Source: Pelomonas sp. Root1237 | Lineage (GTDB): Bacteria; Pseudomonadota; Gammaproteobacteria; Burkholderiales; Burkholderiaceae_C | DNA length: 64,000 nt | Assembly: GCF_001425055.1 (NCBI RefSeq) | Contig: NZ_LMDK01000021.1 | Span: 186,001-250,000, forward strand | Direction of reading: 5' to 3' | In this document: piece by piece, positions 18,912 to 46,635 of the stretch | Layout of the letters: each line of letters opens with the position of its first letter | Numbering within the stretch: position 1 is the stretch's first letter | Notes under the pieces: model-generated | What the model saw: the letters and a program-made list of their open reading frames with translations, nothing else | What the model was told of the DNA's origin: nothing | Database searches by the model: none | Position numbers and translations under genes: made by a program

Positions 18912-19177
18912 AGGGCCTGTTAACACTACGGCAACGGGTCGCGTTGTGGCCAGAAAGGGCGCGAGCAAGGCGCAAAGCGGAGTCGGGTTGGACACCCGGC
19001 GAGCATTTGCAACGCCGCGCGCGGCATTTCTGGCCACAACCCGAAGGGAAGGCCCGCCGCCAGGGGCCACTCGGCGTTGCGCCACTGGCCCGCACATGAG
19101 TGCGGGCGGCGTGCCGCGCCTTGATTGGCCCTGGCGGCGGGCCTTCGCGACCCATTGCCGTAGTGTTAACAGGCCCT
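18912..19177. repeat. Three-way-junction element E1
   Basis: Outer stem: 32 nt at 18912-18943 pairs with 19146-19177 with one mismatch. Arm A: 18944-18956 (TTGTGGCCAGAAA) pairs perfectly with 19027-19039. Linker: 19040-19047 (CCCGAAGG). Arm B: 18 nt at 19048-19065 pairs perfectly with 19129-19146. Arm A encloses a core beginning CAAGGCGCAAAG and ending GCAACGCC; arm B encloses the reverse complement of such a core. Total 266 bp. It begins 3 bp after the lipoprotein stop, between convergent genes. Same geometry as E2-E4. Confidence 0.9.
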
Positions 19178-19185
19178 AAAAGAAC

Positions 19186-19219
19186 GGGCGCGGCAGCCGG
19201 TGGACCGGCTGTCGCGCCC
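19186..19219 (-). terminator. Strong hairpin, possible terminator of the M28 gene
   Basis: A 16-bp stem (one G-T pair) with a 2-nt loop: GGGCGCGGCAGCCGGT and its complement. On the minus strand it is followed by GTTCTTTTAG, a short T-rich run, so it may terminate transcription coming from the M28 peptidase gene about 185 bp away. The 19220-19403 stretch between shows no further gene or clear signal. Confidence 0.5.
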
Positions 19220-19403
19220 GAGCCATCACCGCCTCATCGCCGCAGCTCGACAGTGGACGGCCAGGGGCGACACGGGCAAGGCGGTCATGCTCAATGCATC
19301 AGCCCTCGCGGTGGTGGCGGCTGAATATTCGTCCATCGCCACGCCCACCGCAGTAAGCAAGGGTTGCCTTTGGCGACCGGGCGTCAGCGTTCTTCAGCGC
19401 TAT

Positions 19404-20813
19404 TCAGCGCCGTGGCAGCGGGTAGCTCGCCAGGCTGGCATAACCTTTCTTCGAGACTGACTGCACGCCGAAGACGACGTTGTCCTTGGACACCGGCAGC
19501 GTCGAGCGCGTGGCCCGGCCCACGTCCTTGAACTGCTGCCAGGCGGCCGAGTCGGTGTCGCGCCAGACGACGCGGTAGCCGGCCACCTCGGGGTCGTCGC
19601 TGGCCTGCCACTCCAGCGTCGAGTCGTTGGTCAGCTCGCGCGCATCCAGCTTCACGCCCTTGGGCGGCGCCGGCGCCCAGGCCAGCGTGGCCAGGCCGGC
19701 GAGGTTGGCGCGCGCCACATCGGCCACGTAGGCGAAGTCAACGAACTCGGGCAGGTCACCGAACACGACACCGTTTTCGGTCCTGGGGTTCTGGTGCTGG
19801 TGGGCGAAGTTCTCAAAGGGTTCGGAGAAGCGCACCGCCGCATAGCCACGCTCCAGGAAGGGGATGTGGTCACCGCCGCGCAGATAGCGGTCGCGGCGTT
19901 GGATGAGCTGGACCGTGAAGCCAGGCATGGCAGCCTCGGCGGCCGCCTTGAGGTGGCGGCCGAGCTGGTGGGTCGGCAGGTCCTCGTTGCCACCGGCCTG
20001 CAGCAACGGCAGCAGCTCGGCCTGCATGGCAGCGACGGACCTGACGTCGGCGTCGCTGGCAGGGCGGTTGGCGTTGGCGGCGGTCAGCAGGCGCACCAGC
20101 GGGTCGAGGCCGTCGGCAAACAGGCGCAGGCGTTTGGGGTCGGCCTGGCCCGCGTCGCCGCGCGAGCTGCCGACGATGTCGTTGGTGATCATGGCCTCGA
20201 CATTGGTGCCCGCAGCACGTGCCTCGCGTGCCCATTGCGCGGCGCCCAGCAGCCCCTGCTCCTCACCCGGCACTGCCATGAAGACGAGGGTCGCGTCGAA
20301 CTGACGCCCGGCCATCACGCAGGCGAGCTCCATGACCGCAGCCGTGCCGGAGGCGTCGTCGTTGGCGCCGGGCGCCTCGCCCAGGGAATCCATGACGTCG
20401 CTGTTGCGCGAGTCGTAGTGGCCGCTGACGACGAGGACGCGGCTCTTCGACGCACCGCGGCCCGGCAGCGTGGCGACGACATTCACCAGCTCGGTCGCCT
20501 GCGGCACGCGGTTGCCGGCCGGCTCGATGAAGCTCTGCTCCTCCACCTGCAGCCGCCCGCCGGCGAGCCTGGAGCAGTTGGACAGCTCCGCCGTGATCCA
20601 GCGGCGCGCGGCACCGATGCCGCGGGTGTCGGAGGCGATGTCGGACAGCGTATGGCGCGTGCCAAAGGCCACCAGCCGGCGGATGCGCGACTCGATGCGG
20701 GCCGGGCTGACTTCGGCCAGCATGGCCTTCAGCTCGTCGGCCGGCGCAGACTGGGCCTGGGCCGTGGCGGCGAGCAGGGGGAAGAGAATGAGGGCGGTCA
20801 ATCGGGCTTGCAT
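19404..20813 (-). CDS. M28-family metallopeptidase, exported
   Basis: A 469-residue protein with a signal peptide ending near ATAQA. The M28 aminopeptidase domain shows the di-zinc ligands in order: SGHYDSRNSD (His/Asp), GANDDASGTAAV (bridging Asp), PGEEQGLLGA (catalytic Glu and ligand Glu), the Asp region after NDIVG, and GGDHIPFLERGYAA (final His). A C-terminal fibronectin-III-like region (about 380-465, with LEWQASDDPEVAGYRVVWRD) may hold substrate or surface. It should cleave N-terminal residues from peptides outside the cytoplasm. No Shine-Dalgarno is evident before ATG 20813. Element E2 lies in its upstream region. Confidence 0.9.
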   Translation of the reverse strand: MQARLTALILFPLLAATAQAQSAPADELKAMLAEVSPARIESRIRRLVAFGTRHTLSDIASDTRGIGAARRWITAELSNCSRLAGGRLQVEEQSFIEPAGNRVPQATELVNVVATLPGRGASKSRVLVVSGHYDSRNSDVMDSLGEAPGANDDASGTAAVMELACVMAGRQFDATLVFMAVPGEEQGLLGAAQWAREARAAGTNVEAMITNDIVGSSRGDAGQADPKRLRLFADGLDPLVRLLTAANANRPASDADVRSVAAMQAELLPLLQAGGNEDLPTHQLGRHLKAAAEAAMPGFTVQLIQRRDRYLRGGDHIPFLERGYAAVRFSEPFENFAHQHQNPRTENGVVFGDLPEFVDFAYVADVARANLAGLATLAWAPAPPKGVKLDARELTNDSTLEWQASDDPEVAGYRVVWRDTDSAAWQQFKDVGRATRSTLPVSKDNVVFGVQSVSKKGYASLASYPLPRR

Positions 20814-20862
20814 GCAAACGATTCTGCCCTTGCCGGGTTGGCCGCGTTCTTCTACTCTGCCA

Positions 20863-21128
20863 GGGGCCTGTGGACCCCTCTGGAATCGGATGCGTTGCCA
20901 CTCAAAAGCCCGCGAGCAAGGCGCGAAGTCGAAGCTGGGGTCGATCCCAGCGAGGCTTCGCAACGCCGCGCGCGGGCTTTTGAGTGACAACCCTTCGGGA
21001 GAGGGTCTGCGCGGGCGCATGGCGTTGTTGCGCGCCTGGCCTGGGCATGAGCCCAGGCGGCGTCGCACGCCTAGCCCTGCACCCGCGCAAACCCTCTCGC
21101 ACCGATTCCAGAGGGGTTCACAGGCCCC
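20863..21128. repeat. Three-way-junction element E2
   Basis: Outer stem: 20863-20894 pairs with 21098-21128 (one mismatch, one bulged base). Arm A: 20 nt at 20895-20914 pairs with 20971-20990 (one mismatch). Linker: 20991-20998 (CCCTTCGG). Arm B: 21 nt at 20999-21019 pairs with 21078-21098 (two mismatches). Total 266 bp. It fills most of the gap between the divergent M28 and EF-G genes and ends 17 bp before the EF-G start. Both arms nearly match E3, but the outer stem does not. Confidence 0.92.
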
Positions 21129-21145
21129 ACACCGAGGAGATTCCG

Positions 21146-23203
21146 ATGAGCGAGACGAGCCTGGATTCGCGAGTGAGCACCATCCGAACGGTCGCGCTGG
21201 TGGGGCCGGCGGCGGCCGGCAAGACGCTGTTGCTGGACGCATTGCTGGCCCATGCCGGCGCCATCCCGCAGGCCGGCAGCATCGAGCGCGGCAGCACGGT
21301 GAGCGACCATGACCCGTTGGAGCGGCGCCTGGGCCATTCGCTGCAATCCAGCCTCGCCCACTTCACCCATGGCGGCATCCGCGTGCACGCCATCGACACG
21401 CCCGGTGCACCGGATTTCGTCGGCCAGGCCCTGCCGGCGCTGGAGGCGGCGGACACCGCCATCGTCGTCATCAACGCCCAGAACGGCATCGAGCTGATGG
21501 CCCAGCGCTTGCTGGCCGCCGCCGCCGAGCGCGGGCTGACACGCCTCATCGTCGTCAACAAGATCGACTGTCCCGACACCGACCTGCCCGGGCTGCTCGC
21601 CCAGATCCGCGAGGTGTTTGGCAAGGAGTGCCTGCCACTGAACTTGCCGGCCAGCGGCGCCAAGCGCGTCGCCGACTGTTTCTTCGCGGCGTCCGGGGAC
21701 GCCGATTTTTCGTCCGTGGCCGAAGCGCACCGGGCCCTGGTCGAGCAGGTCGTCGAGGTCGATGCGGCATTCGTGGACCGCTACCTGACCGACGGCGACG
21801 TCGACCCGCGCGAGCTGCATGCGCCGCTGGAGCAGGCGTTGCGCGAAGGGCATCTGATCCCGGTCTGCTTCTGCTCAGCCAAGACCGGCGCCGGCATTGG
21901 CGAACTGCTGTCGGCGATCGAAGCCTTGATGCCGAACCCGGCCGAGGGCAACCCGCCCCCTTTTCTGGAAGGCAAGGGCACGGAGCCCACGCCCTACCCC
22001 GCCCGGCCCGACCCAGCCGGCCATGTGCTGGCCCATATCTTCAAGATCGTCGCCGACCCCTACCTCGGCAAGATGGGCGTCATGCGCGTGCATCAGGGCC
22101 GCGTCGCCAAGGGCGGCCTGCTCTTCGTCGGCCATGCGCGCAAGCCCATCCGCGTCGCACACCTCTTCATGTTGCAGGGCGCCAAGCATGTCGACATTGA
22201 CGAGGCTTTGCCGGGTGACCTCTGCGCCATTGCCAAGGTGGAAGACCTCGCCTTTGACGCCGTGCTGCATGACGCGCAAGAGGACGAGCACATCTACCTG
22301 AAGCCGCTGGATTTCCCCACCCCGGTGCACGGCCTGGCCATCAGCCCCGCGCGCCGCGGCGATGAGCAGAAGCTCTGGGAGGTGCTGGCCCGGCTGGTGG
22401 AGGAAGACCCCTGCCTGCGCATCGAACAGGCCGGTGAAACGCACCAGACGCTGGTCTACGGCCTGGGTGAACTGCATCTGCGCCTTCTGCTGGAGCGACT
22501 GCGCGAGCTCTACAAGAGCGAAGTCCTCACCGAGCCGCCGCGCATCGCCTACCGCGAGACGATCTCGGCGCCGGCCGAAGGCCACTACCGCCACAAGAAG
22601 CAGAGCGGCGGCGCGGGCCAGTTCGGCGAGGTCTATCTGCGCGTCGAGCCGCTGGAGCGCGGCGCCGGCTTCGAGTTCGTCGACGCGGTGAAGGGTGGCA
22701 CCATTCCGGGCCAGTTCATGCCGGCCGTCGAGAAAGGCGTGCGCTCGGCGTTGGCCAGCGGCGTCATTGCCGGCTATCCGCTGGTGGACCTGCGCGTGGT
22801 CGTCTATGACGGCAAGCACCATTCCGTGGACAGCAAGGAAATCGCCTTCGTCACCGCCGGCCGCCGCGCGCTGATCGAGGCCGTGCGCGAGGCCCGGCCG
22901 CTGATCCTGGAACCCATCGTGCAGGTCGAGATCACGGCGCCCGAGCACGGCATCGGCGACATCACCGGCGACCTCGCATCACGCCGCGGTCAGGTCAACG
23001 GCACGCGCTCCGCCGTGCCGGGCAGCCTCATCGTGCAGGGCCTGGCACCGCTGGCCGAACTGGCCAGCTACCAGACGCGGCTGAACGCGATGACGGCAGG
23101 CGAAGGGCGCTACACGCTGCTGCTGTCGCACTACGAGCCGGTGCCGCCGAACACGCAGGCCGCCCTCGTCGGCGCTTACAAGGCGCACGACGAAGGGGAC
23201 TGA
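21146..23203 (+). CDS. Elongation factor G paralogue (EF-G2-like)
   Basis: A 685-residue translational GTPase. GPAAAGKT (20-27), IDTPG (83-87) and NKID (138-141) form the GTP site; P-loop and switch I (GSTVSDHDPLERR) depart from canonical EF-G and resemble the EF-G-2 class. Domains II to V follow, with YRHKKQSGGAGQFGEVYLR and PEHGIGDITGDLASRRGQV of domains IV-V. Its role may differ from the main EF-G; such paralogues can lack translocase activity, and the usual str operon genes are absent here. GAGGAG lies 7 bp before ATG 21146. The E2 element ends just upstream, in what would be the leader. Confidence 0.9.
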   Translation: MSETSLDSRVSTIRTVALVGPAAAGKTLLLDALLAHAGAIPQAGSIERGSTVSDHDPLERRLGHSLQSSLAHFTHGGIRVHAIDTPGAPDFVGQALPALEAADTAIVVINAQNGIELMAQRLLAAAAERGLTRLIVVNKIDCPDTDLPGLLAQIREVFGKECLPLNLPASGAKRVADCFFAASGDADFSSVAEAHRALVEQVVEVDAAFVDRYLTDGDVDPRELHAPLEQALREGHLIPVCFCSAKTGAGIGELLSAIEALMPNPAEGNPPPFLEGKGTEPTPYPARPDPAGHVLAHIFKIVADPYLGKMGVMRVHQGRVAKGGLLFVGHARKPIRVAHLFMLQGAKHVDIDEALPGDLCAIAKVEDLAFDAVLHDAQEDEHIYLKPLDFPTPVHGLAISPARRGDEQKLWEVLARLVEEDPCLRIEQAGETHQTLVYGLGELHLRLLLERLRELYKSEVLTEPPRIAYRETISAPAEGHYRHKKQSGGAGQFGEVYLRVEPLERGAGFEFVDAVKGGTIPGQFMPAVEKGVRSALASGVIAGYPLVDLRVVVYDGKHHSVDSKEIAFVTAGRRALIEAVREARPLILEPIVQVEITAPEHGIGDITGDLASRRGQVNGTRSAVPGSLIVQGLAPLAELASYQTRLNAMTAGEGRYTLLLSHYEPVPPNTQAALVGAYKAHDEGD

Positions 23204-23206
23204 GCT

Positions 23207-23635
23207 TCAGTGCTTGGCCTTGGCGGTGGTCTTCCTGGCCGGCTTGGCCTTGGCGTCCACCTCGGTCTCCGTGTGCATGACACACAACCATTCGCCATCC
23301 TTGCGCAGCCAGACGGACGAGTCGGCCATCTCCTGCTCCTTCTCCTCCGACTTGCCGCGAGGCGCGATGGCCTGCTTGACTCGATAGGTCAGCACGGCGG
23401 TGTCGTCGTTCGGGTGCATGACCTGCATGTCGCTGAACTCGAACGATCTGATGACCATCGGGCCTTCTTCCGCCATGTGCTTGTACTGCTTGCGATCGAA
23501 CTGCATGGCGCCGTGTGAACTCACCATCAGCGCCGGTTCGTCCAGCAGCGCCACTGCGGTGTCGGTGTCTTCGTCCACCATCGACTGCCAGAACTTCTTC
23601 TCCAGCGCGATGAGGGTGCTGTCTGCGGTATGCAT
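23207..23635 (-). CDS. DUF4440/NTF2-like protein
   Basis: A 142-residue protein of the SnoaL/NTF2-like fold, DUF4440 type: an N-terminal helix (LIALEKKFWQSMVDEDTDTAVALLDEP), then strands with DDTAVLTYRVKQ and DSSVWLRKDGEWLCVMHTET. No catalytic residue set can be assigned. The last 18 residues are Lys/Ala-rich (DAKAKPARKTTAKAKH), an unusual basic tail. It converges on the EF-G gene with 3 bp between stops. AGGAG precedes the ATG at 23635. Confidence 0.8.
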   Translation of the reverse strand: MHTADSTLIALEKKFWQSMVDEDTDTAVALLDEPALMVSSHGAMQFDRKQYKHMAEEGPMVIRSFEFSDMQVMHPNDDTAVLTYRVKQAIAPRGKSEEKEQEMADSSVWLRKDGEWLCVMHTETEVDAKAKPARKTTAKAKH

Positions 23636-23783
23636 GCCAATCTCCTTTGACGGCCTAAAACCTCAATATGGGTGCAGCCTGGCGGGCATTCAGTAGGAGT
23701 TGCCGGCTCAGCCGGGTCGGAACCGTCCTACGACCCGGGATCGCGCAGAAGTGAAGGTGAAGATCCATTTATCATTGCGGCCC

Positions 23784-24347
23784 ATGCCCAGCGCCCCCCG
23801 CGACGTCGCGCAGATCCGATTGGACAACGCGATGCGGCTGTTCGAAGAGTTCGTCAGCGCCACCGTCAAGAATGCCGATGCCGCCACCCTGCGTGGCCTG
23901 GAAAGGCGTTTCGCCGAGAGGCTGCAGATCCAGCCCAGCTACTGGAGCCAGATCAAGGGCCGCTCGCGCCAGATCGGCGAGCGCCTGGCGCGGCAGTTCG
24001 AGCAGCTCTGTCACAAGGCGCCGGGTTGGATGGACATCGAGCACGGTGCAATGGCCACTGCCGAGGCACCGGCCATGCCCGCTGCAGCAGCGCCTGCGGC
24101 AAGCGACTCGCCCAGCATGCCCCGAGATGACGACGAGCGCTTCATCATCGGCCTGGTGCTGACCTACTACCGCCGCCACCCGCAGCGCGCCCGCACGCGG
24201 CTGCTGGATCTGCTCGGCGAGGTGCTGACGTCGACCACACCGGCACCCGTGCCGGTGAAGGCGGCCGCGCCCAGTCCGCAGGCCGAGCTCGACGAGTGGC
24301 GCAAGCTGCAGGCGCGCGTCGCGCCGCTGAAGGCCAAGAAGCGCTGA
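23784..24347 (+). CDS. Small helix-turn-helix DNA-binding protein
   Basis: A 187-residue protein. Residues 25-80 resemble a Cro/CI-type helix-turn-helix: LQIQPSYWSQIKGRSRQIGERLARQFEQ followed by KAPGWMD. A low-complexity Ala/Pro linker and a helical C-terminal region follow (DDDERFIIGLVLTYYRRHPQRAR, then a basic end). It is probably a regulator; targets are unknown. A TTATCAT hexamer-like -10 lies directly before the ATG at 23784 with no ribosome site, so it may be leaderless, or translation may begin at the in-frame GTG at 23751. Confidence 0.65.
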   Translation: MPSAPRDVAQIRLDNAMRLFEEFVSATVKNADAATLRGLERRFAERLQIQPSYWSQIKGRSRQIGERLARQFEQLCHKAPGWMDIEHGAMATAEAPAMPAAAAPAASDSPSMPRDDDERFIIGLVLTYYRRHPQRARTRLLDLLGEVLTSTTPAPVPVKAAAPSPQAELDEWRKLQARVAPLKAKKR

Positions 24348-24413
24348 TCCTTCCGCGCATCCATCACTGGACGGCCGGTACTACTCACGTTAGGGGTGTT
24401 GGATAAAAACCGC

Positions 24414-24449
24414 TTGCGCAAGAGCAACGTTTGTTTATCATTTGCGCAA
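24414..24449. promoter_or_regulatory. TTGCGCAA palindrome pair with embedded promoter
   Basis: Perfect palindrome TTGCGCAA occurs at 24414-24421 and 24442-24449. Between them, TTGCGC and TATCAT are 16 bp apart, giving a plausible -35/-10 pair with one palindrome on each hexamer. This is a typical repressor operator layout. Candidates for the repressor are the HTH protein just upstream; its own start region has a related TTTATCATTGCG. Confidence 0.5.
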
Positions 24450-24632
24450 GTTGTGGCGTGTTGCAGTTCTCCCGTCACAGCGAGGTCGCACACCCAAGCC
24501 CTCTGACCGCCCGGCCCGCTTGCCTCGAGCGCAAGCCCCGGGCCCCAACTCATCCATGCAAACGCAGGCGCCACCCCGGGCCGAGCCGCCGCATTGCCCG
24601 CCGCCCACGTGCGGCCCCAACCGGAGCACGCC

Positions 24633-24824
24633 ATGTCCCAATTCACCTCCCCGCGTCCCCTGCAGATCAAAGCGCTCAAACCGCGCAATCCGCTGGTGGC
24701 ACCGGCCATGCAACGCCAGGCCGGCGCCCACCGAAGCGCGCACGACGCCCATGCCCAGCGCCAGCAAGCCCGCCTCGAATTGCGACGCCTGCTGCGCGAC
24801 CGCTTCCCCGACGACAGCCCCTGA
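24633..24824 (+). CDS. Small conserved basic protein
   Basis: A 63-residue protein with LKPRNPLVAPAMQRQAGAHR near residue 15, a pattern I recognise from short uncharacterised Burkholderiales proteins, then a basic helical end rich in Arg and Gln. GGAG lies 8 bp before ATG 24633. If transcribed from the promoter at 24414-24441, it would have a leader of about 180 nt, in which no structure or gene is evident. Function unknown. Confidence 0.68.
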   Translation: MSQFTSPRPLQIKALKPRNPLVAPAMQRQAGAHRSAHDAHAQRQQARLELRRLLRDRFPDDSP

Positions 24825-24899
24825 CCACAGCGCGCCGCCTGCCCCTCAGCCATGACCGATCCATGTCATGAGGGCCGGCCCGGCGCCAAGGAGACCCTC

Positions 24900-25136
24900 A
24901 TGAGATTGATCGAGTTGAGCGGCCCCGATGCCGCCGAAACCCACGCCGCCTGGGCCCGCCGCTGGACCCGCGTCAAGCGCGCGGCCCGTGCCATCCGGTT
25001 GGTGTTCTCGCCGGCCTACCGCCGGCGCCGTGCCCGCAACCATCTGGAGTTCTACGCCGAAGCCGGCGCGCCTGAAGGCGCGCTCTACGTCGATGGCCAG
25101 CTGACCGCCCGGCTGGAAGGCGTGCGCAGGCTGTAG
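24900..25136 (+). CDS. Small basic protein of unknown function
   Basis: A 78-residue protein starting MRLIELSGPDAAETHAAWAR, with an Arg-rich middle (RRRRARNHLEFYAEAG) and a C-terminus like VDGQLTARLEGVRRL. AAGGAG lies 6 bp before ATG 24900, a strong ribosome site. It follows the KPRNPLV-type small gene by 75 bp and may be in the same unit. No function can be assigned. Confidence 0.65.
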   Translation: MRLIELSGPDAAETHAAWARRWTRVKRAARAIRLVFSPAYRRRRARNHLEFYAEAGAPEGALYVDGQLTARLEGVRRL

Positions 25137-25143
25137 GAAAGTC

Positions 25144-25350
25144 GCCCCTCGTTTGCTCTTGCTCCGGCTGAACGCCGGCAAGTGCGAACGGTCCCCCGAG
25201 GGGACGGCGATGCTTGCCGTATTGACCGGCAAGCACATCGCCAGCCGGGCCGGCTTGGGAACTGGAGTCGGACACAAGCAGTCCCTGCGGACTGCTTGTG
25301 CCTACGACAGGCCATGGGGCTCTGGCCCATGGCAGCCCGGCGCTCGCCCC
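25144..25350. repeat. Triple-hairpin repeat copy R3 with an inserted hairpin pair
   Basis: The left part repeats R1 and R2: GTCCCCCGAGGGGAC, then GGCGATG…ATCGCC, then GGGCCGGCTTGGGA. The expected tail is interrupted by about 75 bp before CCCGGCGCTCG resumes near 25336. The insert has two hairpins: CACAAGCAGTCC/GGACTGCTTGTG (25273-25300) and GCCATGGG/CCCATGGC (25311-25333). With the R3 sequence this fills the 305-bp gap before the HDOD gene; the last 90 bp hold nothing clear. Confidence 0.75.
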
Positions 25351-25441
25351 GAGATAGGGGTGCCGTCAAAGCTGAAATGGTTGGCAAAACGGGGCCGCCT
25401 CCGACGAGCAGGCGGCCCCGCCCAGGCCTAGCATCGGCCCC

Positions 25442-26284
25442 ATGTCCGACCGCCTCTGCCTGACCGCGCCACTCCATAGCCTGGAGGCCTGGGTGGACGC
25501 CTTTGCGCGGGCCGAGATCCCCGTACTGGCCGAGACGGCCGAGTCGCTTGAGCACATGCGTGCGACCGAAGACGACGTCGACGCCCACGGCCTGGGAGAA
25601 ATGATCGCCACCGACCCGCTGATGACGCTGAAGGTGCTGGCCCATGCCAGTGAACAGCGGCGCGGCAGCACTTCCGGGCTCAGGGCCGACGCCGAAACAG
25701 TGACCGCTGCCATCGTGCTGATGGGCATCACCCCCTTTTTCCGCGACTTCGGTCCGCAGCCGACGCTCGAACTGGTGCTGGCTGACAACGATGAGGCCCT
25801 GCTCGGGCTGTCACGTGTCATGCAGCGCGCCGAACGTGCCTCGCGCTTCGCGCTGGGCTTTGCGGCCCATCGGGCCGACCCCGATGCCGCCGTCATCCAC
25901 AGCGCCGCCTTGCTGCATGACTTCGCCGAGATGCTGCTGTGGGTACATGCGCCCGTGCTGGCGCTGAAGATCGCCGCCTTGCAGGACGCCGACCGGCATC
26001 TGCGCAGCACGGCTGCCCAGCGCCAGGTGCTGGGCATTGAACTGGCCGAACTGGAGCAGGCCCTGATGCGACGCTGGCATCTGCCGGACTTGCTCGCGCG
26101 CATCACCAGCGAGAAAGACGGCCGCAACCCGCAGGTGCGCTGCGTGCACCTGGCCGTACGCCTGGCGCGGCACACGGCGCGGGGCTGGGATGACGCGGGC
26201 GTGCCGGACGATCTGCACGACATCGCCGAACTGCTCAACCTCGGCGAAGCGCACGCCCTCAAGCTGCTTCACGAATTCGACTGA
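25442..26284 (+). CDS. HDOD-domain protein
   Basis: A 280-residue single-domain HDOD protein. Characteristic parts are IATDPLMTLKVLAHA near 57, AETVTAAIVLMGITPFF near 85, and AALLHDFAEMLLWVHAP near 160, where a conserved HD-like pair remains (LLHDFAE). HDOD proteins take part in signalling, often with c-di-GMP pathways, and lack phosphohydrolase activity in most cases. The gene converges on the sigma-factor gene, with 13 bp between stops. Confidence 0.85.
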   Translation: MSDRLCLTAPLHSLEAWVDAFARAEIPVLAETAESLEHMRATEDDVDAHGLGEMIATDPLMTLKVLAHASEQRRGSTSGLRADAETVTAAIVLMGITPFFRDFGPQPTLELVLADNDEALLGLSRVMQRAERASRFALGFAAHRADPDAAVIHSAALLHDFAEMLLWVHAPVLALKIAALQDADRHLRSTAAQRQVLGIELAELEQALMRRWHLPDLLARITSEKDGRNPQVRCVHLAVRLARHTARGWDDAGVPDDLHDIAELLNLGEAHALKLLHEFD

Positions 26285-26297
26285 CGCCAACGCCAGG

Positions 26298-35804: not shown

Positions 35805-36073
35805 GAAGTCTGTTGGCGCCACGGGGGGCGGATGCGTTGCCACTCAAAAGCCCGCGAGCAAGGCGCGAAACGAAGCTGGGGTCATCCCCAGCGAGGCTTC
35901 GCAACGCTGCGCGCGGGTTTTTGAGTGCCAACCTCTTCGGGAGAGGGCCTGCGCGGGCGCATGGCGTTGTTGCGCGCCTTGCACGGGCAAACCAGCCCGA
36001 GCTTCGGCGCGACGCCTAGCCCTGCGCCCGCGCAGACCCTCTCGCACCGCCCCCCGTGGCGCCAACAGACTTC
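35805..36073. repeat. Three-way-junction element E3
   Basis: Outer stem: 35805-35836 pairs with 36043-36073 (one bulged base). Arm A: 20 nt at 35837-35856 pairs with 35912-35931 (one G-T). Linker: 35932-35940 (CCTCTTCGG). Arm B: 21 nt at 35941-35961 pairs with 36023-36043. Total 269 bp. It fills the space between the divergent purE and thioredoxin genes and ends 12 bp before the latter's start. Arms match E2 closely; the outer stem is unrelated to E2's. Confidence 0.93.
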
Positions 36074-38853: not shown

Positions 38854-38980
38854 TGATGCACCCTTCGCGCTGCGCGCTGTCCCGCCGAGCGGGAATGAGC
38901 CCCTTCGGGCGGCCGTGCGTTGCTCATAGGCCGGCGAGGGTAACGCAGCCAGGCCGTGCCGACTCTCCGGAAAAAGCCGG

Positions 38981-40126
38981 TCAGCGTGGCGGAGTGCCCA
39001 GCCCGGCGCTACTCAAGCGCTCGGCCCAGAGGCGGCGCTGGGCGGCGTCCTGGCCCCAGGCGGCCTGGGCGGCGTCGCCGTGGCGGGCTGCCAGCCCATC
39101 CTCATGCAAGCGGGCGTAGACCTGGGCCAGGCGGGCGTGCAGGGCCGCGCATTCGTCGAGGTCGCAGTGGGCCGCATCCTCGGCCAGCACCTCGACGGCG
39201 GCTTGGTCGGCCAGGGCCCTGGCACGTTGGACCTCGCCGGTATTGGCCCAGCACCAGGCCAGGTCGGCCAGCAGGCTGCCGCCGGTACGGGCCAGGCCAG
39301 CCGCCACCGCCTCGGGCAGGTTGGCCTCCAGCAAGGCAGCGGCAGTGGCGTAGTCGCCCTGCACGGTCAGCAGTTGGGCGCGCAGCAGCGGGGTCAGGTT
39401 GGCGCGGGCAGAACCGCCCACGGCATCGTCGAAATGGCCGATGGAGTCCACCCCCAGCAGCACGGCCGGCGCCTCGCCAGGCTCGCCGGCCAGGGCAGCG
39501 TGGCGGATGCGCAGGGCGCGCATCTGCATCTGGTTGTAGAGCAAGGCCGCCAGGCCGGCGTCGTCACCGTCGGCACTGGCGGCGCGGCGGCCCCAGGCAT
39601 ACCAGGACGACGCGGCGGCTTCGTCCCGAGCCCCCATCGCGAGATCCCAGGCCATGCCCAGCGCTGAAGCGACGCGACACGCGGCGGCGTTGTCCGCCGG
39701 GGCGGCAAGGACTGCGGCGGCATGGGCGACGAGACGGTCGATATCGCGGTCGACAAAGGCCATTTGCGCCAGCCAGGCGTCGCACAGGGTCTGCAGCGCC
39801 GCCAGGTTGGCCGCCTTGGCCATGACGTGGGCGCGCCGCACGCGTTCACAGGCGCCGCCGCCGAAGGCGCTGAAATAAGCCGTCAGCCCTTCGGCCAGAT
39901 GCAGCCAGGCTGCCAGCTCGATGCGCGGATGCACGAGGGCGCGCGCCTGCAGGCGGTTCAGCTCCTCGCGGGCCTCGACCTCGCGGCCATGGCGCAGCCA
40001 CAGGATGGCACGCTGGACCTGCAGCACGGCGGCACGCGCCGGCATGGAGGCGACGGCGGCAATCTCGCCGTCAAGCCGCTGTGCCAGCCGGCTGCGAAGC
40101 TTGACCGGACCGGCTGCAACGCTCAT
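38981..40126 (-). CDS. TPR-like helical-repeat protein of unknown function
   Basis: A 381-residue, almost wholly helical, Ala-rich protein with repeated helix pairs (for example LAEGLTAYFSAFGGG, LLTVQGDYATAAALLEANLPEA, LADLAWCWANTGEVQRARALAD) resembling tetratricopeptides. No catalytic residues or membrane helices are seen. It may be a scaffold. It lies between the kinase gene (128 bp downstream) and purC (145 bp upstream), all on one strand. ATG 40126 is chosen because the upstream extension is Pro/Arg-rich shadow. Confidence 0.75.
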   Translation of the reverse strand: MSVAAGPVKLRSRLAQRLDGEIAAVASMPARAAVLQVQRAILWLRHGREVEAREELNRLQARALVHPRIELAAWLHLAEGLTAYFSAFGGGACERVRRAHVMAKAANLAALQTLCDAWLAQMAFVDRDIDRLVAHAAAVLAAPADNAAACRVASALGMAWDLAMGARDEAAASSWYAWGRRAASADGDDAGLAALLYNQMQMRALRIRHAALAGEPGEAPAVLLGVDSIGHFDDAVGGSARANLTPLLRAQLLTVQGDYATAAALLEANLPEAVAAGLARTGGSLLADLAWCWANTGEVQRARALADQAAVEVLAEDAAHCDLDECAALHARLAQVYARLHEDGLAARHGDAAQAAWGQDAAQRRLWAERLSSAGLGTPPR

Positions 40127-40271
40127 TGGTGCACCCTTCGGCCTGCGGCCTTGCCTGTCCGGCAGCGCGGCCAGGCGTTCGCCAGGCATGCGATGCCCAC
40201 TGGGCATCCCATGTCCGGGCTCACTCCCGCCAGGCGGGAGCGAGCTTGCTTGGGACGGCCCGGCGCGGCGC
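40127..40271. other. Hairpin-rich gap downstream of purC
   Basis: Contains GATGCCC/GGGCATC and CTCCCGC-CAG-GCGGGAG hairpins and a tail CTTGGGACGGCCCGGCG that resembles the end of the R-family repeats. These may end purC transcription or be a worn repeat copy. No gene is seen. Confidence 0.4.
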
Positions 40272-41168
40272 TCATGCCGTCAGCCGCTGCAGCGCTTCTT
40301 CGTACTTCTGCACCGTCTTGGCGATCACCTCGGCCGGCAGGGCCGGCGCAGGCGCCTTCTTGCCCCAGGGCTGGCCGTCGATGCGCACGGCCTCCAGCCA
40401 ATCGCGCACGAACTGCTTGTCGTAGCTGGGCGGGTTGCTGCCCGGCGCATAGCTCTCGACCGGCCAGTAGCGTGAGGAGTCGGGCGTCAGCACCTCGTCC
40501 ATCAGCGTCAGCGTGCCGTCGGCATCCAGGCCGAACTCGAACTTGGTGTCGGCAATGATGATGCCCTTGGTCAGCGCGAAATCGGCGGCACGCTGGTAGA
40601 GCTGGATGGAGATGTCGCGCACGCGGGCGGCGAGGTCGGCGCCGATGATTTCAGCCGCCTGCTCGAACGAGATGTTCTCGTCGTGATCGCCCATCTCGGC
40701 CTTGGTGGCCGGCGTGAAGATGGGGGCGGGCAGCTTGTCGGCATTGCGCAGGCCCGCCGGCAGCTTGACGCCGCAGACGCTGCCGCTGGCCTGGTATTCG
40801 GCCCAGCCGCTGCCGGCCAGGTAGCCGCGCACGACGGCTTCGATGGGCAGGGGCTTGAGCCGCTTGACCAGCATGGTGCGGTCCTGCAGTTGCTCAGCCT
40901 CGGCGGGCGTGACGACGGACAGCGGGTCTTGGCCGGTCAGATGGTTGGGAACGATGCCCTGCAGCTTGTCGAACCAGAACAGCGCCATGCGGGTCAAGAG
41001 CGCCCCTTTGCCCGGAATCGGCTCGCCCATGATGACGTCGAAGGCCGAGAGACGGTCGCTGGCGACCATCAGGATGCGGTCGTCGCCGACGGCGTAGTTC
41101 TCGCGCACCTTGCCGCGGCCAAGCAGCGGCAGGGAGGTCAGGCTGGATTCGTAGAGGGCTTGGGGCAT
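40272..41168 (-). CDS. purC: SAICAR synthase
   Basis: A 298-residue enzyme joining CAIR and aspartate with ATP to give SAICAR in purine synthesis. Signatures: [30 protein letters not shown] near 15-45, [15 protein letters not shown] near 113, and [12 protein letters not shown] near 208 with TPDSSRYWP. The length fits the yeast-like longer form. ATG 41168 is the start. The gene lies apart from purEK in this window. The receiver gene ends 10 bp upstream, so they may be co-transcribed. Confidence 0.96.
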
Positions 41169-41178
41169 GGCGGCGATT

Positions 41179-41559
41179 TTAGGTGCCGCCTCCGGCCAGA
41201 TGGCTTCGTACTGCAGCTGCAAAGCTGTGCACGTCGATCGGCTTGGTCAGATAACCGTCGCAGCCGGCTGCGCGAAAGCGCACCTCGTCGCCCGGCATGG
41301 CAAAGGCGGTGAAGGCAATGACGGGCAGATCGGCGAGGTCGGGCGTGGCCTTGATGGCGCGCACCAGGCTCAGGCCGTCGGTACCCGGCAATTGGATGTC
41401 AACCAGGGCCAGGGCGGGCCGGTAGGCGCGCAGCCGCGCCCAGGCCTCGTCGACGTGCAGCGCGCGGTCGACGATGAAGCCGTCGGCCTCCAGCACGTAC
41501 TGTGCGAGATCGATGTTGAGCTCGTTGTCGTCGACGATCAGGATGCGTTCGCCAGCCAT
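41179..41559 (-). CDS. Single-domain response regulator (DivK-like)
   Basis: A 126-residue receiver with VDDNELN near 9-15, phospho-acceptor D54 in [13 protein letters not shown], and the conserved Lys in GYLTKPID. It has no output domain. Its ATG follows the stop of the hybrid kinase gene with one base between, so it is very likely the phospho-transfer partner or feedback element of that kinase. It reads CheY/DivK-like in its loops ([16 protein letters not shown]). Confidence 0.9.
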
Positions 41560-41560
41560 G

Positions 41561-44500
41561 TCAACCTTTCGTGAGTCGGCCACGCCGGTCCTGGCGGGCG
41601 GCGCGCAGCAGCGCATCGCGCACCTCGGCCAGGGCTTCGGCCTCGCCGGCGCTGGCGATGGCCGCGGCCGAGCGCGCCAGGCTTTCAATGTCCTGCCCAC
41701 TGAGGGTCAGCGCCGTCCAGACGATGACGGGCAGCTCGGCCCAGCGCGGATCCCCGCGCAGTTCATGCAGCACCTGGAATCCGTCGATGCCGGGCATCAT
41801 CAGGTCGAGCACGATGGCCGCGGGCTGCAGGGCGGGCAGGCGTTGCAGCGCCTCGGCGCCGCTGCCGACGGCCACGGCCTCGACGCCCGTGGCCTGCAAT
41901 GCCGCACACATCAGCTCGCGCGACGCCGCCTCGTCGTCGACCACCAGCACCGGCCGGCCCGGACCCAACCGGTCGCGCAGCGGCACGAGGGCACGCGCCA
42001 GGGCCGGGCGGCGCAGCGGCTTGGCCAGCACGTCGGACACCGTGAAAGCCACGCCCGCCCCCGTCGGGGGCGTCAGCGCCAGCGCCTTGACGGCCGCGTG
42101 CATGGACGGCCCGCCGCTGCGCAGCGCCGCCAGCAATGACAGGCCGGGCGCATCAGGCAGGCCGAGGTCGATGGCCAGTTCGGTGTAACGGCGCGCGCGG
42201 GTCAGGCGCAGCACCTCGCCGGCTGTGGACGCGGTGTCGGCGCTCACGCCGGCCCGCGACAGATCACGGGCCAGGCCGTCGCGCAGCGGATGGTCGCGCA
42301 GGGCGATGAGCTGCTGGTGGGCCGGCCGCCCGACCGGCTCGCCGGCATCCAGCGGCTGGCGCGGCAGCACGGCGTAGAAGCGGCTGCCGCGCCCGGGCTC
42401 GCTGTAGACGCCGACACGGCCGCCCTGGGCCTCCACCAGCCGGCGCGTCAGCGCCAGCCCCAGGCCCGTGCCCTGGTGGCGCTTGGTCAGGCCGTCGTCG
42501 AGCTGCTGGAATTCGACAAACAGATGGCCGAGGCGGTCGGCCGGAATGCCAATGCCGCTGTCCTCGACCTCCAACCGCCACAGCCGCGGGCCCTCGCCCA
42601 CCACGCGCAGTTCGACGTGGCCGCCGGCGAGCGTGAACTTGATGGCGTTGGACAGGTAGTTGAGCAACACCTGCTTGAGCCGAGCGGGGTCCAGCACCAG
42701 GTCTCGCAGCCCCGGTTCGATGGAGGACTTAAGGCTCAGGCCACGCTGCTCGGCGAGCACCGCGACGGTGGCCATCACGTCGTCGACCAGGGCCGGCAGT
42801 TCGACCGGCTCGGGATGGAAGTCCATCTTGCCGGCCTCGATCTTGGACAGGTCGAGCACGTCGTTGATCATGGCCAGCAGATGCCGGCCGCTGCTGGCAA
42901 TGTGCTGCAGCCACTCGCGCTGGCGCGGCCCATCCAGCAGATGCGGCGGATGGGCGCTCATGGTCAGCAGGTCGGCGAAGCCGATGACGGCATTCAGCGG
43001 TGTGCGCAGTTCATGCGACATATTGGCGAGGAAGAGGCTCTTGAGCCGGCTGCTTTCCTGCACGCGGCGGTTCTCGGCCGCCAGCCAGATGGACTGCTGG
43101 CGGGCCTGCTCGGCGGTGCGCATGGCGGTCACGTCGGCCACGATGCCGACCAGCCGCGGCGAACCGGCGTCGTCGTGGGTGACCCGGGCGTCCAGGCGCA
43201 GCCAGTGCACGCTGTCATCGGGCCAGATGACGCGGAACTCGGCATGCCAGGGCCGGTGGCCTTCGGGCAGCGCCGCCAGGCCGGCCTCCACCATGGCCCG
43301 GTCGTCGGGATGGACGGCAGCAAGCATGCGCTCGCGGTCCCACGGGCCTTCAGAGTCGGGTCGGCCGAAACATTGGTCATAGCGGCGCGAACGGTGGATC
43401 AGGCCGCTGTCCAGCTCCAGCTCCCAGTCGCCGATGGCCGCGGACTCGAGGGCGAAGCGCAGCCGTGCCTCGCTCTGGCGCAGCGCGGTCTCGATCTGGC
43501 GCTGGTGGGTCAGGTCGCGGGCGGATTTGATGCCGCCGATGATGCGGCCGGCCGCATCGCGCAGCGGCGAGACCTGGGCGGAGATCTCGACTCGCCGGCC
43601 GTCCCTGGCGATGTGAACGGTGCGGAACGGCGGCACATGCTGGCCCTGGGCCAGACTGGCGAGGATGCGCGTCTCCTCGGCTTCACGTTCGGGCGGGATC
43701 AGCATCTGCACCGGCTGCCCGACGACCTCCGCGGCCGTGTAGCCGAACATCTTCTCGGCGCCTGCATTCCAGTTGGTGATGCGACCATCCGGCGTCTTGA
43801 CGATGATGGCGTCGGCCGAGGATTCGACGACGGCCGCCAGGCGGCGCACCTCGGCCTCGGCTTCAGTCAGGCGACCGACGTCGCGGAAGACGATGGCGAC
43901 GCCACGCACGCGGCCGTCGGCGTGGTGGGTCAGGTCAGCGTGAACCTCAACGGGCCGCTGGCTGCCGTCTCGTGCGACGCAGACGGCCTGGCGCTGGAAA
44001 GCGCCTTCGCGGTTGCGCTCGCGCACGACGTCGATGGGGTTGCGCGCCTTCAGGTCGGCCGGCGTGCCCTCGCGCTGGAAGACTTCCCAGACCGGCAGGC
44101 CCAGGGCCTCGCGCGCCGGCCAGCCGGTGATGCGCTCGGCCACGGCATTGATGCGCGTGACCCGGCCGTCGCCGTCGGTCGTGATGAAGCCGGCGTCGAT
44201 GGCCGACAGCGTGGCGGCCAGGCTCTGCTCGGCTTCCAGCTGATGGTCCTCGGCGCTGTGGCGGCGGTCCATCTCACTGCGAAGCGCCTCGTTGGCCGTG
44301 CGCATCTCGTCCAGTGACGGCAGGCCCAGCAGCGTGGGCATCAGGCGCCAGGCCACGGCCGCCGTCAGCACGGACGCGCAGGCGGTGAAGACCTTGCCAG
44401 CGGTCTGCAGTCCGTAGTCGGGGCGCCAGATCGTCCAGACGTCCAGCACATGGGTCACGCCGCAGGCGAAGATGAAGATGGCGAACAGCGTCGCGATGCT

Positions 44501-44683
44501 GCCAAGGTTGACCTGGGGGCGTTGGCGGGCATAGCTGGCGATGGCCAGCGGGATGGAGAAGTAGGCCAGCGCGATGGAAAGGTCGGCGCCGACCATGGTC
44601 CAGAGCAGGCCGGGCGACCACTGGAAGCAATAGCCGTGGGGCAGGAAACCCGCTCGCGCGACGATTCCGGTCAGCTCGTCCAT
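41561..44683 (-). CDS. Hybrid histidine kinase with ethylene-receptor-like sensor domain
   Basis: A 1040-residue membrane hybrid kinase. Residues 25-115 form three membrane helices like the ethylene-binding domain: D34, Y41, I44, P45, I71, C74 and H78 match plant ETR1 D25, Y32, I35, P36, I62, C65 and H69 at a constant offset of nine, including both copper ligands. Three PAS regions follow (about 150-270, 282-395, 402-520), then HisKA with H557 in ANMSHELRTPLN, HATPase (NYLSNAIKF, DSGIGIPAD, GTGLGLAL), a degenerate receiver and a C-terminal receiver with VVDDEAAS and LDLMMPGIDG. ATG 44683 has GGAG 5 bp upstream. Ethylene binding is inferred, not shown. Confidence 0.92.
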   Translation of the reverse strand: MDELTGIVARAGFLPHGYCFQWSPGLLWTMVGADLSIALAYFSIPLAIASYARQRPQVNLGSIATLFAIFIFACGVTHVLDVWTIWRPDYGLQTAGKVFTACASVLTAAVAWRLMPTLLGLPSLDEMRTANEALRSEMDRRHSAEDHQLEAEQSLAATLSAIDAGFITTDGDGRVTRINAVAERITGWPAREALGLPVWEVFQREGTPADLKARNPIDVVRERNREGAFQRQAVCVARDGSQRPVEVHADLTHHADGRVRGVAIVFRDVGRLTEAEAEVRRLAAVVESSADAIIVKTPDGRITNWNAGAEKMFGYTAAEVVGQPVQMLIPPEREAEETRILASLAQGQHVPPFRTVHIARDGRRVEISAQVSPLRDAAGRIIGGIKSARDLTHQRQIETALRQSEARLRFALESAAIGDWELELDSGLIHRSRRYDQCFGRPDSEGPWDRERMLAAVHPDDRAMVEAGLAALPEGHRPWHAEFRVIWPDDSVHWLRLDARVTHDDAGSPRLVGIVADVTAMRTAEQARQQSIWLAAENRRVQESSRLKSLFLANMSHELRTPLNAVIGFADLLTMSAHPPHLLDGPRQREWLQHIASSGRHLLAMINDVLDLSKIEAGKMDFHPEPVELPALVDDVMATVAVLAEQRGLSLKSSIEPGLRDLVLDPARLKQVLLNYLSNAIKFTLAGGHVELRVVGEGPRLWRLEVEDSGIGIPADRLGHLFVEFQQLDDGLTKRHQGTGLGLALTRRLVEAQGGRVGVYSEPGRGSRFYAVLPRQPLDAGEPVGRPAHQQLIALRDHPLRDGLARDLSRAGVSADTASTAGEVLRLTRARRYTELAIDLGLPDAPGLSLLAALRSGGPSMHAAVKALALTPPTGAGVAFTVSDVLAKPLRRPALARALVPLRDRLGPGRPVLVVDDEAASRELMCAALQATGVEAVAVGSGAEALQRLPALQPAAIVLDLMMPGIDGFQVLHELRGDPRWAELPVIVWTALTLSGQDIESLARSAAAIASAGEAEALAEVRDALLRAARQDRRGRLTKG

Positions 44684-44781
44684 CCCAGCTCCCGACCCCA
44701 ATGACCAAGGGGTTATGCCGATGCATTGTGACCCCGCGAACAGGGGGGCATCAGGCGAAAACGTGTCTTATTCCCGGGGCT

Positions 44782-45207
44782 TCAGCGTGGCGTGATCAGC
44801 TCGAAGCCCACATAGCGGGCGATGAAGCGCTCCCGGCCCTCCTGGGCGAAAGCGTCGGCGTCCCAGTCCCCAGGGAGCAGCCGGTCGGCGAACTCGGGGC
44901 GGAAGCGGTAGACCTGGGCCGGTAGCGCGTTGCCGTCGGCCAGCGCCACGACGACATCGGCGCGCTCGTACTCGACGCCCTCGAAGGCATCCAGCCGCTC
45001 CCAGGCGCCAGTGTCGACGTCGCGATAAACCCGCCCCGGCACAAGGCCGCCCGCCGCGGCCCGCAGGCCGGGGTAGTCCTGGCCGCGCACCGGGTGGCGC
45101 TGGTGATCGGTCAGCGAGGCCGGCTCGCTGGCGAATTCACGCCCGCAGACGCGGGCCATGATGTCGGCCCACATCAGTGAGCCGTAGGTGAAGCAGTGAC
45201 GCGTCAC
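44782..45207 (-). CDS. Gamma-glutamylcyclotransferase-like (AIG2) protein
   Basis: A 141-residue AIG2/GGCT-fold protein: HCFTYGSLMW near 4-13 is the substrate-binding YGSL motif, with GLVPGRVYRDVD and LDAFEGVEYERADVVV carrying the acidic Glu of the catalytic site. It probably cleaves a gamma-glutamyl amine or peptide. Start GTG 45207 is preceded by AAGGG, which overlaps the fba TAA stop, and is 7 bp after fba, so it is translated from the same message. The pairing with fba has no obvious metabolic reason. Confidence 0.8.
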   Translation of the reverse strand: MTRHCFTYGSLMWADIMARVCGREFASEPASLTDHQRHPVRGQDYPGLRAAAGGLVPGRVYRDVDTGAWERLDAFEGVEYERADVVVALADGNALPAQVYRFRPEFADRLLPGDWDADAFAQEGRERFIARYVGFELITPR

Positions 45208-45214
45208 TGAACCC

Positions 45215-46279
45215 TTATTGGACCTTCTGTGCCAGCTCACCGCGCGCATAGGCGCCAGCGATGTCGACCAGCGTGCGGCCCTTGATCTTGCCGGCCTGGC
45301 CTTCGCAGCCGAATTGCATATAGCGCTCCTTGGCGATGACCTTGGCGGCTTCGCGGGCGGGCTTGAGCCATTCGCGGGCGTCAAACTTGTCGGGGTTCTC
45401 GGCCAGGAACTTGCGCACCGCGCCCGTCATCGCCAGGCGGATGTCGGTGTCGATGTTGATCTTGCGCACGCCATGCTTGATGGCCTCCTGGATCTCCTCG
45501 ACCGGCACGCCGAAGGTCTCCTTCATCTTGCCGCCGTACTGGTTGATGATGGCCAGCAGCTCCTGCGGCACGCTGGACGAACCGTGCATGACTAGGTGGG
45601 TGTTCGGGATGCGCGCGTGGATCTCCTTCACGCGGCCGATGGCCAGGATGTCGCCCGTGGGCTTGCGGCTGAATTTGTAGGCGCCATGGCTGGTGCCGAT
45701 GGCGATCGCCAGCGCGTCGAGCTGCGTGGCCTTGACGAACACGGCGGCCTCCTCGGGGTCGGTCAGCATCTGGCTGTGATCCAGCTTGCCTTCGGCGCCG
45801 ATGCCGTCTTCCTCGCCGGCATCACCGGTTTCGAGGTTGCCCAGGCAGCCCAGCTCTCCCTCGACGGTGACGCCGACCTGGTGCGCCATCTCGACGACCT
45901 TGCGGGTCACTTCCATGTTGTATTCGAAAGAGGCCGGCGTCTTGCCGTCTTCCATCAGCGAGCCGTCCATCATCACGGAGCCGAAGCCCAGGTCGATGGC
46001 ACCGGCGCAGATCTTGGGGCTGGTGCCGTGGTCCTGGTGCATGACCAGGGGGATATGCGGGTAGGCCTCGCAGGCGGCCTGGATCAGATGCTTGATGAAG
46101 GGCTCGCCAGCGTATTTGCGGGCGCCGGCCGAGGCCTGCAGGATGACCGGTGCACCGACCTCGTCGGCCGCGGCCATGATGGCCTGCACCTGCTCCAGGT
46201 TGTTGACGTTGAAGGCTGGGATGCCGTAGCCGTTTTCGGCGGCGTGGTCCAGCAACTGGCGCATGGAAACGAGAGGCAT
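45215..46279 (-). CDS. fba: Class II fructose-1,6-bisphosphate aldolase
   Basis: A 354-residue zinc aldolase of glycolysis, gluconeogenesis and possibly the Calvin cycle. Signatures include [13 protein letters not shown] near 19, HQDHG near 80 (zinc His), [24 protein letters not shown] near 139, GTSHGAYKF (second His), HGSSSVP (third His), and [12 protein letters not shown] near 283. The length and loop pattern are those of the CbbA/proteobacterial class IIB form. Start ATG 46279. Upstream lies element E4 in the gap to the divergent HTH-ATPase gene. Confidence 0.97.
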
Positions 46280-46368
46280 GGGTTGTCCCCGGTGGAGTTG
46301 AGAAATCTGGGCCGACTGCGGTACGCACCCTAGGCCGTAACCGCTTCGTAACTGGTTGGGGATTCTAT

Positions 46369-46635
46369 GGAGGCTGCCGGCCTTTGGGACGGGCGCGCGT
46401 TGACCCGCATTCGGGGGTCAGGCAAGGCGCAAAGCGGAGCCGGGTGGGTTACCCGGCGAGCATTTGCAACGCCGCATGAGCCTCGAAGGCGGGTCAACCC
46501 GTAGGGCCGGGGCGATTTGCCACGCCATCCAGCGTTGCGCCCGCCTCGTGGGGATGACCCCACAGCGGCGGCCGCGCCTTGTCTGGCATGGCAAATCTCC
46601 CCGGCGCGCACCCGTCCCAAAGGCCGGCAGCCTCC
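46369..46635. repeat. Three-way-junction element E4
   Basis: Outer stem: 31 nt at 46369-46399 pairs with 46605-46635 (one mismatch). Arm A: TTGACCCGC (46400-46408) pairs with GCGGGTCAA (46489-46497), then a weaker inner stem. Linker: 46498-46505 (CCCGTAGG). Arm B: 22 nt at 46506-46527 pairs with 46584-46605 (two mismatches). Total 267 bp. It lies between divergent fba and the HTH-ATPase gene. Its arm A core is closest to E1. The remaining gap sequence (46280-46368, 46636-46691) must hold both promoters. Confidence 0.9.

Follow-up and report, generated by a model that had tools for sequence, protein, structure and literature searches.

Four foldback elements with a common hairpin tip in Pelomonas sp. 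Root1237, and their probable relation to insertion sequences

The stretch analysed here (the window) consists of 64,000 nucleotides of Pelomonas sp. Root1237, positions 186001-250000 of contig C21 (NZ_LMDK01000021.1), in a genome of 6.43 Mb and 22 contigs, called G000 below. It carries four intergenic elements of 266 to 269 bp, each of which can fold as an outer stem followed by two arms, A and B, with a short linker between them. A scan of the window for outer stems (span of 190-360 bp, score of at least 20) found only four places, at 18912-19177, 20863-21128, 35805-36073 and 46368-46636, and the same scan on 10 dinucleotide-preserving shuffles of the window gave 0 folds in each. These places agree to within a base with those of an earlier reading of this DNA (the original prediction), whose four folds were therefore recovered blind; the linkers given there for elements 1 to 4, CCCGAAGG, CCCTTCGG, CCTCTTCGG and CCCGTAGG, were found as described. 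Folding energies of the four elements were of -204 to -211 kcal/mol, compared to means of -122 to -132 for 60 shuffles (z = -13.0 to -17.8). The outer stem of element 2 is 94% paired, with strands of 32 vs 31 nt. The features are as follows.

18912-19177, + strand: element 1, family I, two-arm form, 266 bp (outer stem 18912-18943 / 19146-19177, arm A, linker, arm B)
18966-19017, + strand: tip A of element 1, CAAGGCGC...GCAACGCCG (motif match C21:204966-205017)
19040-19048, + strand: linker of element 1, CCCGAAGGG (reverse form CCCTTCGGG in other family I copies)
19072-19123, - strand: tip B of element 1, motif of tip A on the opposite strand (motif match C21:205072-205123)
20863-21128, + strand: element 2, family II, two-arm form, 266 bp, between an M28 peptidase gene (-) and an EF-G-like gene (+)
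20917-20968, + strand: tip A of element 2, motif match
20991-20999, + strand: linker of element 2, CCCTTCGGG
21024-21074, - strand: tip B of element 2, variant CTAGGCGT
35805-36073, + strand: element 3, family II, two-arm form, 269 bp, flanked by genes for an AIR carboxylase (-) and a thioredoxin-TPR protein (+)
35859-35909, + strand: tip A of element 3, motif match
35932-35941, + strand: linker of element 3, CCTCTTCGGG
35966-36019, - strand: tip B of element 3, diverged
46369-46635, + strand: element 4, family III, two-arm form, 267 bp, flanked by genes for a class II fructose-bisphosphate aldolase (-) and an ATPase/STAS-like protein (+)
46423-46474, + strand: tip A of element 4, motif match
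46498-46506, + strand: linker of element 4, CCCGTAGGG
46530-46581, - strand: tip B of element 4, motif match

Two properties had been overlooked in the original prediction. The tips begin 54 nt inside the element end and all have the motif CAAGGCGC...GCAACGCYG, in this or a variant form, and arm B repeats the hairpin type of arm A in inverted orientation. The latter follows from the strands on which the tips lie, + in arm A and - in arm B, in 39 of the 40 family I and II alignment rows where both tips were detected, L314 being the sole exception; at L320, the single tip detected (arm A) is inverted. Both strands of the tip contain unpaired bases: an AA on the 5′ strand and, a few base pairs from it, a group that includes AA on the 3′ strand.

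Further copies, which the original prediction had named as a test, are abundant. The tip motif, written as CAAGGCGC N20-50 GCAACGCYG, has 52 exact matches in G000, corresponding by position to 42 loci, and its reversed control has 0. BLAST and pattern searches distinguished at least three sequence families, I (like element 1), II (like elements 2 and 3) and III (like element 4), and a relaxed motif search added elements with another stem sequence and the same layout, for instance L028, L080, L082 and L083. Two forms have the apical hairpin CAAGGCGC...GCAACGCCG in common, a two-arm form of ∼266 bp and a one-arm form of ∼161 bp. One-arm forms of 161 bp occur in G000 at L086 and L090, and similar folds at L088, L123 and L124. 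With a crude open reading frame (ORF) caller, 45 of 46 loci lay outside called ORFs and 1 of 46 was spanned by one.

The distance from tip to end is nearly constant. When ends were sought at 45-75 nt for two-arm forms, 41 of the 44 tips with a detected end started 53-56 nt from it, and when ends were sought without limits the count was 43 of 46 (all end-spacing analyses required at least 70 nt of flank on both sides of the tip). A two-arm element is therefore built roughly as 54 + 52 + 54 + 52 + 54 nt, and a one-arm element as 54 + 53 + 54 nt. Extracts of 47 family I and 23 family II copies were aligned, leaving 44 + 23 rows, reference included, once identical and N-containing copies were dropped. 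Mean column identity was 0.87 in the outer stems and 0.95-0.97 in the tip motifs of family I, 0.82 and 0.99 respectively in family II, and 0.82-0.92 in the tip interiors. As rows were not picked by motif, the conservation of the tip in these alignments is not circular. The linker is a short CCC-NNN-GGG sequence found in both orientations in family I (GAA in 23 of 44 rows, TTC in 12, others in 9). In nine family I elements (L315, L297, L316, L300, L318, L321, L016, L317 and L322), the interior of the arm-A tip is like that of family II, and tips seem to be exchanged between families as modules.

A resident insertion sequence (IS) resembles element 1 at its ends. Matches to the PF01609 profile were found at three loci in G000. 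One of them, L280, at the end of contig C1, is an IS of ∼826 bp whose transposase (NF033580 IS5 family; DUF4096 and DDE_Tnp_1) is encoded in two frames overlapping at a run of eight A. Element 1 has the same end sequence as this IS, with exact matches of 17 and 18 nt to its two ends, and no other shared match exceeds 9-10 nt; the L280 locus has no tip motif, and the IS interior is unrelated to the element. At the level of sequence, family I ends are thus those of an IS5-family IS resident in the same genome. Miniature inverted-repeat transposable elements (MITEs) are recognised by terminal repeats common with an autonomous element, which we found for element 1 and family I, and by insertion polymorphism between relatives and a lack of coding capacity, both of which were also found. 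An interior derived from the IS by deletion, another mark of MITEs, was not found, similarity being confined to the ends. A relative of the L280 IS on a Polaromonas plasmid has CTAG on both sides. Next to the L280 IS, in L280:940-1230, ∼120 bp contain the left IS end twice in tandem, beside N near the contig end, which is perhaps an assembly artefact. Another G000 transposase locus (L281:793-2175) lies between very long inverted repeats (score 166) and, judging by its ends, is unrelated to the elements.

A second pair of this kind, with different ends, was found in a Vandammella record (G225), where a 161-bp one-arm element ending in AGAGCCTGTTCAAAGT occurs together with an IS of 850 bp whose two frames overlap. 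Each IS end differs from the element end by 2 mismatches of 16, and 150 shuffled ends never came nearer than 4.

The original prediction had offered three candidates, a structured RNA, a replication- or recombination-active cruciform, and a non-autonomous mobile element. The last gained support, from the dispersed copies and IS ends described above and from the comparison of insertion sites with congeners. At site 1, the closest relative, G201, reads CTGCTGACCTGAAAAG without an element, where G000 reads CTGCTGAGCC, the element, then AAAAG. The site 2 element is absent from G201 and from ten other aligned congeners. Site 4 is empty, TTCTATGGAGTC (TTCTAT|GGAGTC), in five congeners (L198, L200, L203, L205 and L207), against TTCTAT, the element and AGAGTC in G000; at this place G209 keeps a left-end-like stretch, and the sequence of G207 is different. 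At site 3, an orthologous element is present in G205 and G208 and absent from seven other congeners, which makes it an older copy.

This comparison was extended to 24 further loci, whose flanks were located in five congeners. G201 regions were fetched for 20 of them, one of which (L021) could not be aligned. Among the 19 loci with both flanks aligned in G201, 15 had no recognisable element, counting as empty L007, where CCCT near the junction could be a tiny scar, and with the limits of L020 being ∼55 nt off, here and in the gene-orientation tally given below. At L002 and L018, G201 seems to retain scars, at most a few dozen bases long, and L009 is filled. At the L020 site, G201 instead has a short foldback of another kind (L245), whose ends resemble those of the one-arm element L086, so that two unlike elements occupy one site. 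The cleanest junction is that of L062, AAACCTAGGGCC when empty and AAACCTA[..]TAGGGCC when filled, which amounts to a duplication of TA or CTAG. CTAG/CTGG surrounds L063, and CTAG surrounds L078, for which no empty site was seen. We conclude that the elements are dispersed, multi-copy and protein-free, and absent from the closest relative at most of the loci compared.

Covariation of the stems, the other test that had been named, is also present. In the outer stems of the 44 + 23 rows, two-sided changes occupied 243 cells and mismatches 102; counted by type per pair, there were 72 double changes, 22 G-T, 19 A-C and 16 others. The corresponding G-T/A-C types were 22/18 in arm A and 29/24 in arm B. 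Transitions to transversions among outer-stem double changes were 40:32 by type and 166:77 by cell, and 837:784 in the flanks. The same pattern is visible in place at element 3, where comparisons were counted by eye over the first 27 positions: the G205 copy has 7 outer-stem differences, all two-sided, both copies being perfectly paired, and the G208 copy has 7 left-strand differences, 6 of them two-sided. Arm-less scars of 51-63 bp occur in G188 and G151, and the tip is inverted in place in L320 and L314. Linker flips, inverted tips and arm-less scars are the traces that one would expect from palindrome deletion and template switching. Published work describes how template switching homogenises arms and inverts spacers, and its role in compensatory changes (PMC8604942, PMC8794818). 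If template switching is at work here, changes on both sides of a stem, which are usually read as proof of a functional RNA, may have their origin at the DNA level.

Elements of this kind are found outside G000. Within the order, the tip motif was matched in 103 of 200 genomes, this one included, and the reversed control in 20 of 200; many of the single matches resemble chance hits in coding DNA. Seven genomes besides this one have 14 to 32 matches each, and two-arm folds with the same kind of linker were seen in G188, G151, G133 and G139. A scan of GTDB (one genome per species, bacteria and archaea) returned at least 115 stretches, 80 of 115 being listed, and results for this sample concern the matches listed. 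With two-arm ends sought at 45-75 nt, 16 of 17 detected ends lay 53-56 nt from the tip and one at 58; with ends sought without limit, 18 of 21 lay at 53-56 nt. When flanks were re-paired between loci of the sample, an end was detected in only 2 of 1475 cases. The 17 tips with ends include records of Thioalkalivibrio, Wenzhouxiangella, Lautropia, Vandammella and Variovorax, and also of Elusimicrobia, Gemmatimonas, a Clostridiaceae metagenome-assembled genome (MAG) and a Zetaproteobacteria MAG; several of the 17 are MAGs, open to contamination, so this list of phyla is provisional. Their ends vary (AGGGAAACACTGATTAAT, AGGCTCTGTGAAACAATA, AGGAACCGCGCAGCAACA, GGAGCCTCTGAACAAGTC, AGAGCCTGTTCAAAGTCT, AGGGCCTGTTAACACTAA and others), and AGGGCCTGTTAACACTAA, that of the Zetaproteobacteria MAG, is the left IS end in G000. 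A relative on a Variovorax plasmid lies in an unannotated stretch.

We propose that these four features represent non-autonomous transposable elements of the foldback type, moved in trans by an IS transposase and with stems kept paired by template switching, and give this reading a probability of about 0.75. The transposase of the L280 IS, and those of related ISs for families with other ends, would cut the terminal repeats and move the elements, probably with a preference for CTAG-like targets. The body is not IS-derived, and consists of one or two apical hairpins with conserved A-rich bulges, mostly 53-56 nt from the end, joined by near-perfect stems. During replication, a switch of template between arms (quasi-palindrome correction) would copy mutations from one arm to the other; it would also flip loops and tips, and sometimes delete arms. 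Our best guess for the tip and its 54-nt spacing is that they are kept for a contact made during mobilisation or for survival of the long palindrome, through a host or transposition protein or through hairpin nucleation. The elements work like MITEs, yet are not IS deletion products and, as far as the evidence goes, they depend on insertion sequences.

Several observations weigh against this proposal. Elements 2, 3 and 4 do not have the L280 IS end, so that their mobiliser is a presumed one, and with two IS-element pairs only (L280 and G225) the same holds for a general mobiliser. In G188 and G151, which hold many elements with the 16-nt end GAGCCTGTTCAAAGTC, no IS with that end was found among the 30 of 45 matches fetched. 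Among 10 further genomes matched by PF01609, for which 30 of 36 matches were examined, only G225 yielded a clear IS-element pair, and in G218 and G219 element-like ends lie near transposases and do not bracket them. Most junctions showed no exact target duplication that could be read, and many of them are ragged by several nt. Re-pairing the flanks within G000 still gave two-arm folds in 178 of 1020 cases, because its copies share sequence. Among the 75 usable tips of the GTDB sample, 51 had no fold, next to 7 two-arm, 10 one-arm and 7 with an arm only. Pair counts use the structure of the reference copy, which favours pairing, and counted by cells G-T/A-C was 46/35 in the outer stems, 48/43 in arm A and 110/59 in arm B, the excess in arm B being led by family I (G-T 89 vs A-C 39). 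A weak bias of G-T over A-C may therefore exist in the stems. As to the GAGCCTGTTCAAAGTC end, a 1.3-kb candidate pair at L586 was rejected, as it overlaps a 405-aa ORF, which we take to be CorA-like and not a transposase.

The G-T excess by cells is among the points in favour of a structured RNA family, transcribed and selected for its fold, together with the very low folding energies, the many two-sided changes, and the short distance of 17 and 12 bp that separates elements 2 and 3 from presumed start ATGs. RNA selection on one strand should favour G-T over A-C, and the two are nearly equal by types, so that this candidate of the original prediction was not supported. It is also opposed by the tip motif lying on opposite strands in the two arms, by the absence of the element from the closest relative at most loci compared, and by Rfam, which gave 0 matches at gathering over the window and, for 18 further loci at E up to 1, only two microRNA matches (E of 0.24 and 0.36), far under the gathering scores; we regard it as very unlikely. 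The cruciform fared better in part: the loop and tip inversions and the arm-deletion scars are hairpin traces, and a host function is what found no support. A DNA cruciform selected for use by a host protein, for example in chromosome organisation or replication, with mobility as a secondary trait, would account for the fixed geometry, for the occurrence of the motif in 103 of 200 genomes of the order, and for family II arms changing far less than the outer stem (mean identity of 0.97 vs 0.82, compared to only 0.89 vs 0.87 in family I). Most positions are not common with the closest relative, and arm-less scars make single copies look dispensable, which leaves this explanation improbable.

A transposon of another make was also considered. 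In bacterial interspersed mosaic elements (BIMEs), repetitive extragenic palindromic (REP) sequences form inverted imperfect hairpins in intergenic DNA, and the present elements have two such hairpins, with conserved bulges, at high copy number; G000 moreover has 3 Y1_Tnp matches. If the tips were REP sequences moved by a REP-associated tyrosine transposase (RAYT, Y1), one would expect the repeat to flank a RAYT gene. No tip motif lies within 1.5 kb of any of the 3 Y1 loci, family I has IS5-type ends of 17-18 bp, and the cleanest site shows a TA/CTAG duplication. A RAYT/REP origin was rejected on the first of these grounds, and a REP/BIME-type system appears to us scarcely probable. The ends shared with an IS of the same genome, the small size and the lack of genes would suit an ordinary MITE formed by internal deletion of an IS, with an interior of no further meaning. 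The interior has no similarity to the IS beyond its ends, and the same tip and 54-nt spacing are met again with other ends elsewhere, in genomes of which several are titled as other phyla, so we consider this origin unlikely. Finally, a role as transcription terminator was rejected, an excess of convergent genes being expected of terminators: in a crude gene-orientation tally of 46 loci, 7 were convergent, as against 18 divergent and 21 co-directed.

IS-mobilised foldback elements, the reading we favour, can also be set against known systems. They resemble IS5-family MITEs in being non-autonomous, short and intergenic, in having (for family I) terminal repeats common with an IS5-family IS of the same genome, and in the TA/CTAG duplication at the cleanest site. 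Unlike these MITEs, they have an interior that is not IS-derived, are paired over nearly their whole length, and keep a 54-nt spacing from tip to end and one tip across families with different ends. Parts of a review on MITEs (PMC10969869) mention stable stem-loops, and in those parts no shared apical hairpin appears. With REP, BIME and REPIN (paired REP) sequences and their RAYTs, the likeness is in the inverted imperfect hairpins of intergenic DNA, and the differences lie in the lack of tips near Y1 genes, the IS-type terminal repeats, and size classes of about 161 to 290 bp. The attC site of integrons is a folded single-strand hairpin with extrahelical bases, a trait found here as well, but family I has the terminal repeats of an IS. 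Parvovirus terminal hairpins are T-shaped, with an outer stem and two arms, parts of which flip; the likeness is one of shape only, and the present elements are internal to a chromosome. In Rfam and in the open-licence literature searched, no earlier description was recognised as this foldback family, in keeping with the earlier statement that no named family has this shape.

As the tip and the ruler are common to elements with different ends, a broader reading can be put forward, tentatively: the elements would form one old lineage of structural hyperparasites, rather than decayed ISs, with a tip and a 54-nt ruler read by a widely conserved factor, and would have spread through several phyla by repeatedly adopting the terminal repeats of active host ISs, template switching keeping their stems. 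If this is right, a mobile-element lineage present in records of several phyla is defined by shape and hairpin tip, and not by a gene or by terminal repeats. It raises the question of what recognises the tip, and why it lies 54 nt from the end. A single genus would then provide dozens of natural palindromes of 266 bp, together with orthologous copies, empty sites and scars left by deletion, in which the rates of arm correction, loop inversion and palindrome deletion could be measured.

Some minor observations concern neighbouring genes and other replicons. The distance from the element end to the ATG taken as start is 17 bp for the EF-G-like gene after element 2, and 12 bp for element 3. Only ACACCGAGGAGATTCCG separates element 2 from the EF-G-like ATG (window 20863-21145). 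A TTGCC...TTCTAC stretch upstream of this gene is kept in most congeners, which suggests that element 2 now sits in its 5′ leader. At L014, L015 and L034 in G000, the element ends 1 to 4 bp before the apparent start codon; with ends so near, either the gene is leaderless or ribosome binding relies on sequence inside the element. A search of phage records gave no match, and in viral contigs 66 of 70 usable tips among the matches listed were without a full fold and 4 of 70 had one. One IMG/VR viral contig carries two-arm elements (L473 and L477) with the 54-nt spacing and the end GGCTCATATCTTAT. In G177, at L137 (G177:C1:264700-266900), two tips lie in direct orientation, 212 bp apart and with repeated flanks, as in a tandem form.

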